Origin: Alphaproteobacteria bacterium
GTDB lineage: Bacteria; Pseudomonadota; Alphaproteobacteria; Micavibrionales; Micavibrionaceae
DNA: 64,000 nt
Direction of reading: 5' to 3'
Assembly (NCBI GenBank): GCA_023150415.1
Contig: JAKLKY010000003.1
Location: 1-64,000 of the forward strand
A program made the translations under genes and the position numbers. How positions within the stretch are numbered: position 1 is the first letter of the stretch; each line of letters opens with the position of its first letter. This document shows, piece by piece, positions 5,886-21,364 of the stretch. The notes under the pieces are model-generated. The model had not been told where the DNA came from. It was given only the letters and a program-made list of their open reading frames with translations, and ran no database searches.

Positions 5886-8606
5886 TTATATTCCCTCTTC
5901 CGGGGTGTCGGGGCTGTCTTCTTCCCCCTCTTCCTGCACCAGCCAGGCCACAGACACGACGTTTTCGCCCTCGCCGACCTTGAAGACGGTCACGCCCTGG
6001 GCGCTGCGGCCGGTGACGCGGATATTCTCGACCGGCGTGCGTATCAGCTGGCCCTTATCGGAGACCAGCATGATCTGGTGATTGTCGGTGACCGGGAACG
6101 TCGCCACCACCTGCCCGCCATTCTTCGACGTCAGCGCCATATTGGTGACGCCCTGCCCGCCGCGCCCTGAAACACGGTATTCATAGGCCGAGGTGCGCTT
6201 GCCGAAGCCCTTGTTGGTGACGGTGAGCAGCAATTGCTCGCCTGCCAGCAATTCGCGGTAGCGTTCCTGCGAAAGTTCGATTGTGGCGACATTTTCCTGT
6301 GGCTCATCAGATACAACCGCTTCGCCTTCGTCCGCGACCATACGGCTGGCGGCTTTCAGATACGCGTCACGTTCTTCAGGCGTGATATCGAGATGTTTTA
6401 AAATCGACATGGAAATCACTTCATCATCCTTGCCCACCAGCTTGATGCCGCGCACGCCGGTCGAGGTGCGGCCCGCAAACACGCGAATGTCGCTTACAGG
6501 GAAGCGGATCGCCTTGCCGTTGCGCGTGGCGAGAAGGACATCTTCGTCTTCCTTGCAGATTTTCACGGAGACGAGTTTCTCGCCCTCCTCGAGTTTCATG
6601 GCGATCAGCCCGTTGGCGCGGATATTCTGGAAGTCGGCCAGTTTATTGCGCCGCACCGAGCCGTGCGAGGTGGCAAACATGATGTCAAGCTTGTCCCACA
6701 ATTCTTCGTTCTCAGGCGTGCGTAGATAAACGCTCACCGTTTCGCCCGCTCCCAGCGGCAGCATATTCACCAGTGCCTTGCCGCGCGACTGCGGCGTGGC
6801 CAGCGGCAATTGATAGACCTTCATGCGGTGCACAATCCCGCGCGAGGTGAAGAACAAAATCGGCGTGTGGGTGGAAGCCACAAACAGATCGGTGACGTAA
6901 TCATCATCCTTCGTCGTCATTGCGGCCCGGCCCTTGCCGCCGCGGCGCTGCGCGCGATACGTGTCAAGCGGCACGCGCTTGACGTAGCCGCCACCTGTGA
7001 TTGTCACCACCATATCCTCACGCTGAATGAGGGATTCGATATCGGTTTCAAATTCGGATTCGATGATTTCCGTACGGCGGGGCGTGCCGAATTTTTCTTT
7101 GACCTCTTGCAATTCGCCCACCAACACACCCAGCATTTTCTCACGGCTGGCGAGGATCGCTAGATATTCACCGATTTGGTCGGTAATTTCTTTCAGCTCA
7201 TTGCCGATTTTATCGCGCTCCAGTCCTGTGAGGCGATGCAAGCGCAGCTCCAGAATCGCGCGGGCCTGTGCCTCGGAGAGATTATAGGTGCCATCCGCAG
7301 ACACCCTATATTCGGGGTCATCAATCAACGCAATTAGCGGCGCAACATCGCGCGCGGGCCAGGCGCGCGCCATCAATTGTTCGCGCGCGGTGGTGGGGTC
7401 TTTGGCGGCGCGGATCAGGGCAATGACTTCATCAATATTCGCCACCGCGACGGCCAGACCAGCCAAGACATGCGCGCGCTTGCGCGCCTCGCCCAGTTCG
7501 AACACCGTGCGGCGGGTGATGACTTCCTCGCGGAAGCGCACGAAAGCGCGAATGAAATCTTTCAGCACCAGCATCTGCGGCCGGCCACCCATCAGCGCCA
7601 CCATGTTGCACGGGAAATTCGTCTGCAGCGCCGTATGCTTGAACAGCTGGTTCAGCACCACTTCGCCGTTTGCATTGTTCTTTAATTCCACCACGATGCG
7701 GGTGCCGTCCCGGTCGGATTCGTCGCGCACTTCGTGAATGTCTTCAACGATTTTCTCGCGGCCGACTTCGCCCAGACGCTCGAGCAATTTGCCCTTGTTA
7801 ACCTGATACGGCACATCGTCGATGATGATTGCCTGGCGTTTGCCGATCTCCTCGAAATGCGTGCGGGCGCGCATTGTCACGGACCCGTTACCGGTGTGAT
7901 ACGCGCTGCGGATACCGCTGCGCCCCAGGATCATCGCGCCGGTGGGAAAATCCGGGCCGGGGATGATCTGATTTAATTCTTCGGTGCCGATATCCGGATT
8001 GGCCACATAGGCGATACAAGCATCAACCACTTCGTTCAAATTATGCGGCGGAATGTTGGTGGCCATACCCACGGCGATTCCGCCCGCGCCGTTGACCAGC
8101 AAATTCGGAATGCGTGCCGGTAGCACCATAGGCTCCACCGTCGATTCATCGTAGTTGGGCTGGAAATCCACGGTCTCTTTTTCAATGTCTTGCAGCAGGG
8201 CTTCGGCGGCCTTGTCCAGCCGCGCCTCGGTATAGCGCATCGCCGCCGGCGCATCGCCGTCCATCGAGCCAAAATTCCCCTGTCCGTCGATCAACGGCAG
8301 GCGCAGTGACCAGGGCTGCGCCATGCGCACCAATGCGTCGTAAATCGCCAGATCGCCGTGCGGGTGATATTTACCCATCACATCCCCGACGATGCGGGCG
8401 GATTTCTTATACGATTTATCGGACGTATAACCGCCTTCGCGCATAGCGTGGAAAATGCGCCGGTGTACCGGCTTCAACCCATCGCGCACATCGGGCAATG
8501 CCCGGCTCACGATCACGCTCATCGCGTAATCGAGATAGGATTGTTTCATCTCATCTTCGAGGGAGATAATCGGGAAAGTCTCGTCAGTTTTGGCCGGATC
8601 GGACAT
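5886..8606 (-). CDS. gyrA: DNA gyrase subunit A
   Basis: Breakage-reunion subunit of the A2B2 gyrase that introduces negative supercoils. The 906-residue length fits GyrA. The N-terminal domain carries the catalytic Tyr125 in [10 protein letters not shown]; the GyrA box QRRGGKG (in [11 protein letters not shown]) opens the C-terminal beta-pinwheel domain, and the protein ends in an acidic tail. In the quinolone-resistance region ([16 protein letters not shown]) the residue equivalent to E. coli Ser83 is Leu86 (codon CTG at 8349-8351), while the Asp87 equivalent (Asp90) is kept. It is first in a run with the transporter and coaD genes. Confidence 0.98.
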
Positions 8607-8708
8607 CGATCTTTACGCTATGTTTAAATGTTGATTTTTCAAGGGATTTTGTAGCAGTTGGGGGTAAGAAAAACAAGACCTTTTCCCCCTCTTCTGCACC
8701 TGTTTGTT

Positions 8709-8728
8709 ATCCCCGCGAAGGCGGGGAT
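8709..8728. repeat. REP-like GC-rich palindrome
   Basis: ATCCCCGC-GAAG-GCGGGGAT, a perfect 8-bp-stem hairpin between the ssb stop and gyrA. This (A)TCCCCGCGAAGGCGGGGAT type is a familiar dispersed intergenic palindrome in proteobacteria. No T tract follows on the - strand, so it is not a standard terminator for ssb. Confidence 0.6.
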
Positions 8729-8736
8729 GACAAGTA

Positions 8737-9204
8737 CTAAAACGGTATCTCGTCTTCAAATTCCTGCGGTGCCGGCTGGCGCGCGGCTGCGGTGCCACCG
8801 GATGACATGGAAGAATCATTGCTGGCATACGAGCCGCCGCTATCGCGCGAACCTTTGGAATCGAGCATCGTCAATTCACCCCGGAACGGGCGCAGCACGA
8901 CTTCGGTGGAATATTTCTCAACGCCGCTTTGATCCGTCCATTTGCGGGTCTCCAGCTGGCCTTCGATGTAAACTTTCGCGCCTTTTTTCAGGTAATTCTC
9001 GCACACATTGACGATGTTCTGGTTGAACACAACGACGCGGTGCCATTCGGTTTTTTCCTTGCGCTCGCCGCTTTGCTTGTCCTTCCAGCTCTCGGACGTG
9101 GCGATGGAGAGATTGCACACGCGGTCCCCGGACTGCATCGACCGCACTTCCGGATCCTTGCCCAGATTGCCCACGAGAATGACTTTATTGACTGAACCGG
9201 CCAC
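8737..9204 (-). CDS. ssb: Single-stranded DNA-binding protein
   Basis: Binds and protects ssDNA in replication, recombination and repair. The N-terminal OB fold begins [21 protein letters not shown] and includes [10 protein letters not shown] and [17 protein letters not shown] low-complexity Gly/Ser linker leads to the acidic tip EFEDEIPF, the conserved docking peptide for SSB partners. 155 residues is typical. GGAGAA (in AAGGAGAAGC) precedes the ATG. The gene ends with TAG, which shows that TAG is a normal stop here (relevant to recG). Confidence 0.97.
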
Positions 9205-9274
9205 AGCGCTTCTCCTTTAAGTTGTTGTTATAAGAGGGACTATAGAGCGTTGCTTTGAGAGAGGCAATGAAGAA

Positions 9275-9307
9275 TATAAAAGGGGACGGAACTGAAGTTC
9301 CGTCTCC
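9275..9307 (-). terminator. Intrinsic terminator after the GST gene
   Basis: A GC-rich inverted repeat (GACGGAACT / AGTTCCGTC, 2-nt loop) at 9282-9307, followed on the - strand by CCCCTTTTATATT. It lies 18 bp past the stop of the leftward GST gene. A closely related hairpin lies at 13709-13734. Confidence 0.7.
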
Positions 9308-9324
9308 TGACTGACACACAGGCA

Positions 9325-9957
9325 CTATGCCGCCGCCTTGTATTCCACTTGCTCTTCCTGCAGTGCCTTTTGATAGGCGGGCTGGGCGCTAATGGTTTTC
9401 AGCAGCGTTTTTGTCTTTGGGCCGAAGCTGAACTGACGCGGCAGCCATGACCAATTGGCAATGACGGTGAGAAGAATATCGGCTGCTGTTTGCTCCTTGC
9501 CGCACAGATACGGGCCGTTCGCAGCCAGATGGGTTTCGATTTCGTCCCACATGGACTGAATACTGTCGAGCGCGGCCTTTAAAGCTTTTTCCTTGGATGG
9601 GCCATCATCGACCGTGCGCCCGATCATGCCTGCTTTACTATAGGCCACATGCAGCGTCGCATTCGCGAACATCAGCCATTGCAGCGCATTGGCGCGCGCC
9701 CAGCCGGATTTCGGCAATAACGGACTGCTATGCGCATCGCACAGATAGGTGATGATCGCGCCGCCTTCGCGCATGCCATGCCCATCGAATTCCAGAAACG
9801 GCACAGCGCCACGGGGATTCTTTTTGAGGAATTCAGGTTTTTTGGTGTCACCGTCCTTGATGGATGTTCTCACCGCCTTGAACGGCACGTTGAGCGTATT
9901 CAAAATCACATGCACCGCCATCGAGCAGGCACCGGGGGAATAATAAAGCGTATACAT
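9325..9957 (-). CDS. Glutathione S-transferase family protein
   Basis: A 210-residue cytosolic GST: N-terminal thioredoxin-like domain with MYTLYYSPGACSMAVH (Ser/Cys region near the catalytic position), NPRGAVPFLEFDG (cis-Pro of the glutathione site) and the GGAIITYL motif, followed by an all-helical C-terminal domain. Such proteins conjugate or reduce substrates with glutathione; the substrate is unknown. The start at 9957 is fixed by a strong AGGAG 6 nt upstream; the frame upstream of it is not protein-like. Confidence 0.88.
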   Translation of the reverse strand: MYTLYYSPGACSMAVHVILNTLNVPFKAVRTSIKDGDTKKPEFLKKNPRGAVPFLEFDGHGMREGGAIITYLCDAHSSPLLPKSGWARANALQWLMFANATLHVAYSKAGMIGRTVDDGPSKEKALKAALDSIQSMWDEIETHLAANGPYLCGKEQTAADILLTVIANWSWLPRQFSFGPKTKTLLKTISAQPAYQKALQEEQVEYKAAA

Positions 9958-9995
9958 TAAATTCTCCTTATATATTGCACTTACAGATGCACACA

Positions 9996-10023
9996 CAAAT
10001 AGGGCGGATCCGCATGGCGTCAA
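9996..10023 (-). promoter_or_regulatory. Possible promoter for the GST gene
   Basis: On the - strand TTGACG (10018-10023), 16-bp spacer, TATTTG (9996-10001), about 40 nt before the start codon. The -10 match is weak. Confidence 0.35.
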
Positions 10024-10024
10024 G

Positions 10025-10149
10025 AACTATAAGATAGTCATTCCAATTAAGAATCTGACACTTACCATCGTCATTACCCGCATGAAGCGGGTGATGACGG
10101 CTGAGGGATATGTGTCCGGCTCTTAATTGCAATGGCTATACCTATAGTT
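10025..10149. repeat. MITE-like imperfect palindrome of about 125 bp
   Basis: The outer arms 10025-10061 and 10112-10149 are inverted repeats: over the inner 28 positions about 23 match, with AACTATA/TATAGTT at the tips and CAATTAAGA/TCTTAATTG in the middle. Inside lies a second nested hairpin, CATTACCCGC-ATGAA-GCGGGTGATG (10071-10096). No ORF is inside. The structure fits a miniature inverted-repeat element rather than a terminator. Confidence 0.6.
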
Positions 10150-18717: not shown

Positions 18718-19671
18718 TTACTCCCCCGCCGCGGCGGCGATCATGGTCTCGCGCGGAGAGGTGTGCAGCCACCAGCTCTGGCGATTGATGGAATAGATGG
18801 GGCGGTAGCGCCCGGCTTGTTCCGCGGCGACCAATGTCTTGATCTGATTATCCAGCACGAACACCCCCTGCGGCGTGTAGACGGCCAGCACAGCATGCGG
18901 CATGTCGCGCTGGGTGTCTTGCACGATGGCCAGGCGCAGCCGCTCCTCTGGCACGCCCAGCGCGCGCAAGGCTGCGTATTTGGCGATCGCGAAATCCTCG
19001 CAATCGCCGCCTTTATCCAGGAACTCGACAGGCGTCGCCCAATAATCGCTGCGGCCCCAATTTTCCTGATCGGCGATGTAGGGTTGTTTGTTCATAAGGG
19101 CATTCACAGCCGCAGCCATGTCCTTTAGCGACAGCGCGGCCAAAGGTTTGAGATCTGCGCGCAGGCGTGCGAGTGCTTCTTGCGCCTGCCCCGCCTGGGT
19201 ATTAAAGCGGGCAAACATCTCATGCCATTTGGTAAAGGATTCGGTTTGGGCCGAAGCCTGTTCGACCGTGCCGAACAAGGCGCGGCGTACGCCAGGCGCA
19301 GGTATAGAATCGGGCCGATCGGTGAGTACCATCAAGACCGCGGGCAAATCGCGTTGCTGTTCCGGTGCGGCGTGGGCCTTACGCTCGGGTCCGACGCATA
19401 ACGCCATCGCCAAGACCATGACTGCGACAGCACAGCGCACCCCTCCCTGCAACGCCAACGCAAAGCCAAGCTGCGCCCGGTTCAGATTGCCTTGACGCAC
19501 TAGAATGCGCCCCAGAGGCCCGGGAGTGATCTTTTGCTCGCGCAAGGCAGACCGCAAGGCGGCAGGCGAGAGGATCCCGCAAAGAACCAGGAGATCCCCC
19601 AACCGCCCGTTTTTTTGAAAAATACTTCGGAAAAGCGCCTTTTTTGGCGTCTTTTTTAATACCATGCGCAC
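18718..19671 (-). CDS. Membrane-anchored transglutaminase-like cysteine peptidase (LapG-like) with N-terminal MshEN domain
   Basis: 317 residues with three parts. Residues 23-46 and 52-75 each fit the 24-residue MshEN c-di-GMP motif (RLGxxLxxxG...L..aL..Q) and are separated by exactly five residues (KITPG), as in MshE and GspE N-domains. Residues 76-94 form a membrane segment. Residues ~108-317 match the bacterial transglutaminase-like cysteine peptidase family (LapG; PF06035): KGGDCEDFAIAKY with catalytic Cys224, MPHAVLAVY with His259, and VLDNQ with Asp274. LapG is a periplasmic protease that releases surface adhesins and is normally controlled by the separate c-di-GMP receptor LapD. This layout would put c-di-GMP binding in the cytoplasm and the protease in the periplasm. 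Start is GTG 19671 or ATG 19665 (GGGGGTG upstream). Confidence 0.85.
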   Translation of the reverse strand: MRMVLKKTPKKALFRSIFQKNGRLGDLLVLCGILSPAALRSALREQKITPGPLGRILVRQGNLNRAQLGFALALQGGVRCAVAVMVLAMALCVGPERKAHAAPEQQRDLPAVLMVLTDRPDSIPAPGVRRALFGTVEQASAQTESFTKWHEMFARFNTQAGQAQEALARLRADLKPLAALSLKDMAAAVNALMNKQPYIADQENWGRSDYWATPVEFLDKGGDCEDFAIAKYAALRALGVPEERLRLAIVQDTQRDMPHAVLAVYTPQGVFVLDNQIKTLVAAEQAGRYRPIYSINRQSWWLHTSPRETMIAAAAGE

Positions 19672-19852: not shown

Positions 19853-21364
19853 ATGAAAATTGATAATATAAACAATAGCTTAGCAGATATTCTGTCGCAT
19901 TTTAGCCAGTCCCGCGTTCTGGTGGTAGGGGATCTCATGCTCGACCGATTCGTCAGCGGCGTGGTAGAGCGGATCTCCCCCGAAAGTCCAGTACCTGTTC
20001 TTACCATAAAGCGTGAGGATTCAATGCCGGGTGGTGCTGGCAATGCGCTGGCAAATCTGGTGGGTCTGGGTGTGAAGGCGCAGGTGATCGGTTTGATCGG
20101 CGATGACGATGCGGGCATGCTCTTATCCACCAGGCTTGCCACGCTGGGCGCGGACCCTGCCCTGTTGCTGGTGGACCCTGCACGCCCAAGCATCGTCAAG
20201 ACGCGTTATCTGGCCGGCCATCAACAGCTTCTGCGCGCGGATCAGGAGAAGAACATTCCGCTCCGTGATGATCAGGTATCCATACTGTTGAGCAGGATGG
20301 ATCAGCACATCGATACAGTGCGTGCCGTTTTGCTATCAGATTACAGTAAGGGTTTGTTGCGCCCCGATATGGTGAAGGCGATGATCGCACGCGCGCAGAA
20401 GGCCGGCATTCCGGTTCTGATTGATCCCAAGGGAACGGATTACAGCCATTATCGCGGCGCGGATTTGATTACGCCCAACCGCAAAGAGCTGGAGCAGGCC
20501 ACCGGCGGCATGGAAACCGATTCTGATGAGGCCGTGACGCGCGCTGCACAGCACCTGATGACCACACACGGAATCAAGGCCGTGCTGGCGACACGGGCGA
20601 GCGATGGATTATCCTTGATTCAATCCGCACAGCCGCCCTTGCATGTGCGCAGCCGCGATATTGAAGTCTATGATGTCTCCGGCGCGGGCGATGCCGTCAT
20701 TGCCACAGCGACTGCTGTGCTGGCGGCTGGGGGGTGTTTGGAACAGGCCGCACAATTGGCCAATCTGGCCGGCAGCATTGTTGTGACAAAAGTCGGCACC
20801 GCACCGATACGCGCGGAGGAATTGCAATCTGCGCTAGCGCATCAAGAGGCTTATTCCCAGCACAGCCAGAGCGGCCACATGGCGCCTGTCATGGAATGGC
20901 AGGAGGCAGCGGAACAAGCGCGGCGCTGGCGCGCGCGCGGCCTGCGCATCGGATTTACCAATGGCTGCTTTGATATTCTGCACAAAGGGCACGTTGCGTA
21001 TTTGAATCAGGCGCGTGCTGCGTGTGATCGCTTGATCGTGGCAGTGAACAATGACAGCTCGGTTCGTATTCTCAAAGGCGAAGGCCGACCGGTGAATGAC
21101 CAGAACGCGCGCGCCGAAGTTCTGGCCGCACTGGGGGCGGTGGATATGGTCGTATGCTTTGGCGCTGAGAAACCCGAGGCTGACAACACCGCCAGCGATT
21201 TGATCGCCCTGCTGCAGCCTGATCTCTATTTCAAGGGCGGTGATTATACCGAAGATCAAATCCCCGAAGCACCCGCCGTGCGCAAGGCGGGCGGTCGCAT
21301 TCATATTATGGATCATCAAGAAGGTCATAGCACGACGCAAACGATTGCGCGGATGCGCTCTTAG
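19853..21364 (+). CDS. hldE: Bifunctional D-glycero-beta-D-manno-heptose-7-phosphate kinase / heptose-1-phosphate adenylyltransferase
   Basis: Makes ADP-heptose for the LPS inner core. 503 residues. The N-terminal ribokinase-fold kinase (residues ~1-330) has VLVVGDLMLDRF, MPGGAGNALANL and the catalytic DVSGAGDAVIA. The C-terminal nucleotidyltransferase (~350-503) begins RIGFTNGCFDILHKGHVAYL with the HxGH motif, and contains LKGEGRPVN and FKGGDY. The two domains are fused as in E. coli HldE. It lies divergent from the MshEN-protease gene and near envelope genes. Confidence 0.96.
   Translation: MKIDNINNSLADILSHFSQSRVLVVGDLMLDRFVSGVVERISPESPVPVLTIKREDSMPGGAGNALANLVGLGVKAQVIGLIGDDDAGMLLSTRLATLGADPALLLVDPARPSIVKTRYLAGHQQLLRADQEKNIPLRDDQVSILLSRMDQHIDTVRAVLLSDYSKGLLRPDMVKAMIARAQKAGIPVLIDPKGTDYSHYRGADLITPNRKELEQATGGMETDSDEAVTRAAQHLMTTHGIKAVLATRASDGLSLIQSAQPPLHVRSRDIEVYDVSGAGDAVIATATAVLAAGGCLEQAAQLANLAGSIVVTKVGTAPIRAEELQSALAHQEAYSQHSQSGHMAPVMEWQEAAEQARRWRARGLRIGFTNGCFDILHKGHVAYLNQARAACDRLIVAVNNDSSVRILKGEGRPVNDQNARAEVLAALGAVDMVVCFGAEKPEADNTASDLIALLQPDLYFKGGDYTEDQIPEAPAVRKAGGRIHIMDHQEGHSTTQTIARMRS

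Follow-up and report, generated by a model that had tools for sequence, protein, structure and literature searches.

In the Lap system, the protease LapG is controlled indirectly by the inner-membrane c-di-GMP receptor LapD. LapG-type enzymes cut [T/A/P]AAG sites, and the domains of the MshEN family are c-di-GMP binders. The 64,000-nucleotide stretch of alphaproteobacterial DNA analysed here (the window) contains a gene in which an MshEN-like segment precedes a LapG-type protease, raising the question of how c-di-GMP might act on a protease to which its putative receptor is fused. A preliminary description, made from the sequence alone, had proposed that receptor and protease are one polypeptide, with direct control exerted across a membrane span. 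We found matches to both MshEN and LapG-type models in a single ORF, in agreement with the first part of this proposal. Read on the minus strand, the ORF extends from 19671 to 18718 with its stop codon and, judged together with its orthologues in the order, encodes a 317-aa precursor composed of an MshEN domain, a probable signal sequence and a LapG-type protease. It starts with GTG, an ATG being present two codons further in. No description of an MshEN–LapG fusion was found in the literature searched, which took in only a minority of subscription papers.

An annotation artefact, in which the true start codon would lie at the signal peptide, leaving the MshEN-like part untranslated, would suit the clear AAGGAGG that sits about 45 nt upstream of the GTG, as well as the presence of a Shine–Dalgarno match at only 17 of the 76 starts chosen for the orthologues. 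We rejected this reading as extremely improbable, because the N-terminal part is conserved at the protein level, in the same frame across the order and from residue 12 onward, and because a Shine–Dalgarno-preceded start near the signal sequence was found in none of the 76 orthologues. The divergent neighbour hldE/rfaE (PfkB plus cytidylyltransferase; 19853..21364, plus strand), which is a neighbour in relatives too, is not thought to play a part in the mechanism. There were no Lap genes among the neighbours, which comprise hldE, ribonucleotide reductase, a D-Ala-D-Ala carboxypeptidase-like gene and a phasin-like gene, and an operon link to Lap functions was rejected on this basis. A search with Rfam revealed no riboswitch upstream of the gene, its sole match within the 64-kb window being a single tRNA.

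The predicted c-di-GMP-binding MshEN domain spans residues 23-75 (19447..19605, minus strand) and comprises motif I (residues 23-46; 19534-19605) and motif II (residues 52-75; 19447-19518). The NCBIfam model NF053729 (c-di-GMP motif, MshE-related) covered exactly residues 23-75, at 53 of 53 positions, with 47.2 bits against a curated cut-off of 38 bits. This bears out the two 24-residue motifs with a five-residue spacer reported in the preliminary description, whose residue numbers were correct. The Pfam model PF05157, which has 90 positions and is broader than the 53-residue motif, did not match the protein even at E ≤ 10 and was listed for 0 of 64 orthologues at 0.01. All 64 aligned orthologues matched NF053729 at E ≤ 0.01, and all 64 matched PF06035 as well. 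Using phmmer, we retrieved MshE/PilF c-di-GMP domain structures (5htl, 8pfa, 6f8l). In an AlphaFold2 (AF2) model built from 64 orthologues (mean pLDDT 87), the domain adopts the four-helix fold of the ligand site (pLDDT 90-97), and Foldseek superposed it on 5htl, MshE with c-di-GMP, with an rmsd of 0.6 Å over 55 columns at 49% identity. We therefore rejected a chance occurrence of the motif, considering the order-wide architecture, the 64/64 NF053729 matches and the superposition on MshE.

The contact residues R23, L24, G25, L39, L43, Q46, L53, G54, L68, L72 and Q75, whose roles in ligand binding were reported previously (PMC5013675), are present in the fusion protein. Motif II starts with Pro52 instead of Arg, the other ligand-contact residues of the RLG and LxxxLxxQ elements being present in both motifs. 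In an alignment of 78 orthologous sequences, G25 (76/76), R/K23 (76/76), G54 (77/78) and Q75 (77/78) were retained, Q46 was kept in 62 of 77 sequences and replaced in about a fifth, and Gly61 was incompletely conserved. The relaxed MshEN motif tolerates P at the motif start (PMC5013675). In PilF, a Ser at the motif start abolished c-di-GMP binding, the near-consensus MshEN of GSPII-A can fail to bind, and a fragment covering residues 9-65 bound c-di-GMP when the consensus motif was restored (PMC12002112), showing that a short N-subdomain can be enough. We infer that the MshEN domain of the fusion protein binds c-di-GMP, Pro52 in place of Arg being the main doubt.

Residues 102-317 (18721..19368, minus strand) form a BTLCP/LapG-type cysteine protease that is predicted to be periplasmic. 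PF06035 matched residues 172-301 (18769-19158) with 78.4 bits (cut-off, 27 bits), and phmmer retrieved the LapG structures 4u65 and 4fgo at E ~1e-21, the nearest solved structures by sequence being LapG of P. fluorescens and L. pneumophila. LapG structures were also the top Foldseek hits of the AF2 model (4u65/4fgq, E ~1e-10). The catalytic residues Cys224 (19000..19002), His259 (18895..18897) and Asp274 (18850..18852) were invariant in 78/78 orthologues, and so were D223, E225 and D226. D223 and E225, which flank the catalytic cysteine in the D-C-E calcium site, are the counterparts of the calcium ligands D316 and E318 beside C317 of DvhG (PMC13090378). The NCBIfam LapG equivalog model NF045674 gave 102.8 bits, below its curated cut-off of 320, indicating that the protease is a LapG relative and not a LapG equivalog.

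The fusion protein was found in 91 of 95 genomes of the order, including that of Micavibrio aeruginosavorus ARL-13, and was nearly always full length from residue 5-21 on. Outside the order, it was not seen among the matches listed from about 780 sampled genomes (385 from the class and 399 from the phylum); there, the LapG-like matches listed start at about model position 75 or later, that is, without MshEN, and inspection of the whole frame in three cases with long frames revealed no MshEN. As far as sampled, the fusion thus appears to be a trait of this order. A single-sequence scan of genome contigs returned only unrelated transglutaminase-like proteins. Two orthologues are natural variants, one with a frameshift within MshEN (G001; L140) and one that has lost MshEN (G032; L141). 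In addition, an unfused LapG-like paralogue lies immediately downstream of the MshEN-fused gene in G038 (L059:8843-9568), and in another genome of the order six or more LapG-like genes with a transglutaminase fold stand in tandem (G068:C9:1066-6700).

We then asked whether the order possesses the usual receptor. None of the order's 95 genomes gave a match to LapD_MoxY_N (PF16448); as a positive control, the same model exceeded its cut-off in 43 of 150 Pseudomonadota. LapD was present in only 10 of 372 genomes of the class, whereas LapG-like profile matches, some perhaps through MshEN alone, occurred in 160 of 385. The lack of LapD is thus a class trait, and since LapD is rare in Alphaproteobacteria anyway, its absence is by itself no proof that MshEN replaces it, which weakens an argument of this kind. 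The window's genome very likely makes c-di-GMP, since it contains five GGDEF matches. It also encodes a GGDEF-EAL protein with a LapD-like layout, a periplasmic loop between two membrane helices (L041; G000:C44:74043-74519). We rejected this protein as a disguised LapD, because its EAL motif is intact and it lacks a LapD_MoxY_N match.

The segment that joins the two domains (19369..19437, minus strand) consists of R79, a hydrophobic stretch (residues 80-95) and an A-x-A sequence (residues 99-101; 19369-19377), with a predicted signal peptidase I cut after Ala101. The preliminary description had called it a membrane span, but the A-x-A site, the fixed junction and the invariance of Ala101 (78/78) make it better read as a cleavable signal sequence. 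Residue counts in the 78 orthologues revealed exactly three residues between Gln75 and R79 in all 78, a basic R/K79 in 77, A99 in 63, a small residue at −3 in nearly all and agreement with the −3/−1 rule in 77. The distance from R79 to A101 ranges from 18 to 24 residues, the residue after the predicted cut is mostly G/D/A/E/S, and the columns flanking Ala101 mostly have an entropy of 2–3 bits as against 0 at Ala101 itself. The maximal 19-residue hydropathy was below 1.6 in 45 of 78 orthologues. Textbook-like signal peptides are found in other families of the order, such as WVIKASTAGMALMMQLFTPSAARA|DDG in L095, whereas in the window's own family a Lys/Arg often lies between the hydrophobic stretch and A-x-A, which is atypical of signal peptides and would fit an uncleaved anchor. 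The G032 orthologue, having lost MshEN, keeps the segment as an ordinary N-terminal signal peptide, and a signal peptide of the ordinary kind occupies this position in the unfused paralogues too. In the AF2 model, a single unbroken helix (residues 63-90) runs from MshEN α4 through the signal core, and confidence is low at residues 93-103, the predicted cut site. The two domains are expected to lie on opposite sides of the membrane, as had been supposed. Because the segment ends in A-x-A with an invariant Ala101, however, signal peptidase I probably splits the receptor from the protease, and direct control across a membrane span is not supported as originally stated. The step under control is consequently more likely to be the export or the maturation of the protease than the activity of an enzyme that stays tethered.

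Candidate substrates, sought among large adhesins with a TAAG-type site as the preliminary description had proposed, were found in the order as proteins with a P/T-A-A-G site. An ARL-13 adhesin carries LAEQLAAVEPAAGEAGG at about residue 216, and N-termini homologous to its own occur in 73 of the 95 genomes; most of the frames concerned are 1500-3600 aa long. From its size, location and gene neighbours, we identified the ARL-13 protein as the published GMV0107, a 2892-aa hemolysin-related protein with von Willebrand factor domains that adjoins TolC, HlyB and HlyD genes and has an expression index of 16.9 in attachment vs 0.3 in attack (PMC3189940). A-A-G, preceded by P or T, was invariant in 29 of 29 aligned sequences, including that of the window's genome, at a mean column identity of 26%, and a profile of the site alone retrieved the P/T-A-A-G site across the order. 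AF2 predicted two β-rich blocks and a helix (205-213) directly before EPAAG, followed by low-confidence coil. The N-terminal domain had no PDB match at E ≤ 0.001, and 19 of the 29 N-termini matched BapA_N weakly. LapG substrates are similarly laid out, with a retention part, a targeting helix and [T/A/P]AAG (PMC13090378), and V. cholerae LapG cuts PAAG in FrhA, a cut that is stopped by mutation to PRRG (PMC6890996). The giant adhesins of type I secretion systems (T1SS) are thus candidate substrates of the fusion protease, although the protease and adhesin genes are not adjacent. In the window's genome, the only AAG-site protein found was a 286-aa ORF with LLANIEPAAGDD (L179:3370-4227; G000:C66:51369-52226), located on the same contig as a T1SS operon (C66). 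It has a GFRF/GTTLDF signature without adhesin repeats, and we regard it as an adhesin that is short or has decayed. Since the draft is 92.5% complete, it may lack a giant adhesin that the organism possesses. Several adhesins (L158, L159, L161, L170) have two or three successive xEPAAG sites before the segment rich in glycine, which looks like a multiplication of the cut site.

To account for these observations, we tentatively favour an explanation in which the export signal of a LapG-type protease precursor carries a c-di-GMP sensor. The MshEN domain would remain cytosolic, its last helix, with the ligand-contacting Leu68, Leu72 and Gln75, running unbroken into the signal-sequence helix. At low c-di-GMP, the precursor would be translocated by Sec and cut by signal peptidase I after Ala101, and the free Ca2+-dependent protease would cleave the giant type-I-secreted adhesins at P/T-A-A-G, causing their release. 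At high c-di-GMP, ligand-bound MshEN would hold the precursor back, with insertion, translocation or cleavage blocked, and the adhesin would stay anchored. Precursor cleavage, the gating of release by c-di-GMP and its direction are what we infer, the presumed polarity being taken over by analogy from Lap. The more specific claim of a second-messenger-gated signal peptide, in which protease export and maturation would depend on c-di-GMP binding to a folded MshEN with a rigid link to a cleavable signal sequence, is possible but more doubtful. The literature searched, which took in only a minority of subscription papers, yielded no precedent for control of a signal sequence by a c-di-GMP sensor.

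If the segment were instead a permanent signal anchor, as in the preliminary description, receptor and protease would stay one polypeptide. Cytosolic c-di-GMP would then directly alter, across the membrane, how active the protease is or what it can reach, perhaps through dimerisation or because the enzyme is kept at the inner membrane, out of reach of the adhesin. The unbroken helix from MshEN α4 into the membrane and the invariant three-residue junction would suit such mechanical coupling, many members have Lys/Arg close to where the segment ends, and a LapG-type protease anchored by an N-terminal membrane helix exists in DvhG of D. vulgaris Hildenborough (PMC13090378). We nevertheless consider an anchor rather unlikely: an A-x-A with Ala101 in 78/78 sequences has no obvious purpose in it, many members have just 10-15 uncharged residues, other families of the order have a helix breaker ahead of ARA|D, and the low-confidence linker of the AF2 model falls exactly at the predicted cut site. 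The continuous helix is compatible with an anchor as well as with gated export, and it is the invariant A-x-A that favours gated export.

Two further readings retain cleavage. MshEN might be a targeting or oligomerisation element, for example one that brings the precursor to the pole or to the secretion machinery, or too weak a binder, the protease being exported and cleaved constitutively. That near-consensus PilF GSPII-A can fail to bind (PMC12002112), that Gln46 and Gly61 are incompletely conserved, and that the domain is frameshifted in G001 and lost in G032, where at least it must be dispensable, are consistent with this. We think it unlikely, however, given that G25, G54, Q75 and the hydrophobic contacts are kept across a deep order while linkers vary, that NF053729 matched 64/64 orthologues, and that a mere tag needs no constant geometry to the signal sequence. 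Alternatively, the precursor might always be cleaved, leaving an MshEN–signal-peptide stub of about 101 aa as a small membrane c-di-GMP receptor that acts in trans elsewhere. Conservation of both the cleavage site and the receptor would fit, but hardly any of the stub would reach into the periplasm, where it would have to grip a protease, and no partner is known, which makes this reading very improbable.

We regard the fusion as a variant of the Lap c-di-GMP adhesin-release circuit, and its logic is probably the same as that of LapD, LapG, LapA and the LapEBC T1SS. As in Pseudomonas, there is a BTLCP protease with C-H-D and a Ca site, a c-di-GMP input (predicted here) and a T1SS giant adhesin with an N-terminal domain, a targeting helix and a [T/A/P]AAG site. 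In Lap, a soluble protease is sequestered by a GGDEF-EAL protein that acts from the periplasmic side; here, by contrast, LapD is missing (0/95) and the receptor would be a 53-residue MshEN that belongs to the protease polypeptide and precedes its signal sequence. The Dvh system of Desulfovibrio vulgaris likewise combines a LapG-type protease with a non-LapD c-di-GMP receptor, showing that such proteases can be run by other receptors; DvhD, however, is a separate protein with dCache/PAS/HD-GYP, and DvhG lacks a c-di-GMP domain. The MshEN (GSPII) domains of MshE, PilB/PilF and NfrB have the same 53-residue double motif and four-helix fold but are joined to ATPases or glycosyltransferases, whereas in the fusion protein the last helix runs on into a probable export signal, the output would be periplasmic and there is no MshEN_C subdomain. 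Unfused alphaproteobacterial LapG-like proteases such as L131 share the protease domain and have a signal peptide at the same place, but in the sampled genomes they lack MshEN. In known adhesin-release circuits, then, LapD or DvhD serves as receptor from the periplasmic side and is a membrane protein distinct from the protease, while this LapD-less order, which includes the epibiotic predator M. aeruginosavorus, has receptor domain and protease in one gene with an invariant export-signal junction. The LapG-type cut site of its giant adhesins is invariant as well. If our explanation is true, LapG-type circuits that otherwise have no receptor in these bacteria would gain one, the attachment of Micavibrio to its prey and its departure from it would become open to experiment, and protein export might prove to be under a new kind of small-molecule control. 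A gated signal peptide would give Micavibrio-type bacteria a one-gene switch for release from a surface or prey, but proof that gating takes place at the signal sequence would be needed before it could count as a new principle.

Other T1SS-associated proteins were observed in the order. A 695-aa FecR-like protein with an apparent T1SS C-terminal signal is encoded in the window's genome (L054:7236-9323; G000:C11), and its relatives gave sub-threshold NF033682 matches in 65 of 95 genomes, the first half of this LapA retention model being matched below the cut-off. Behind their FecR part lies an F-[ST]-x-I stretch that is conserved. We set these proteins aside as substrates, since the helix-like stretch after FecR is not accompanied by a conserved di-alanine site. 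In ARL-13, a cNMP-binding plus EAL protein is encoded beside a FecR/FG-GAP-like T1SS protein (L057:4970-6310 and 6485-10135), and a second T1SS operon at the same locus includes an adenylate cyclase of the CHASE2 type, so that cAMP and c-di-GMP genes adjoin a surface-protein export locus.
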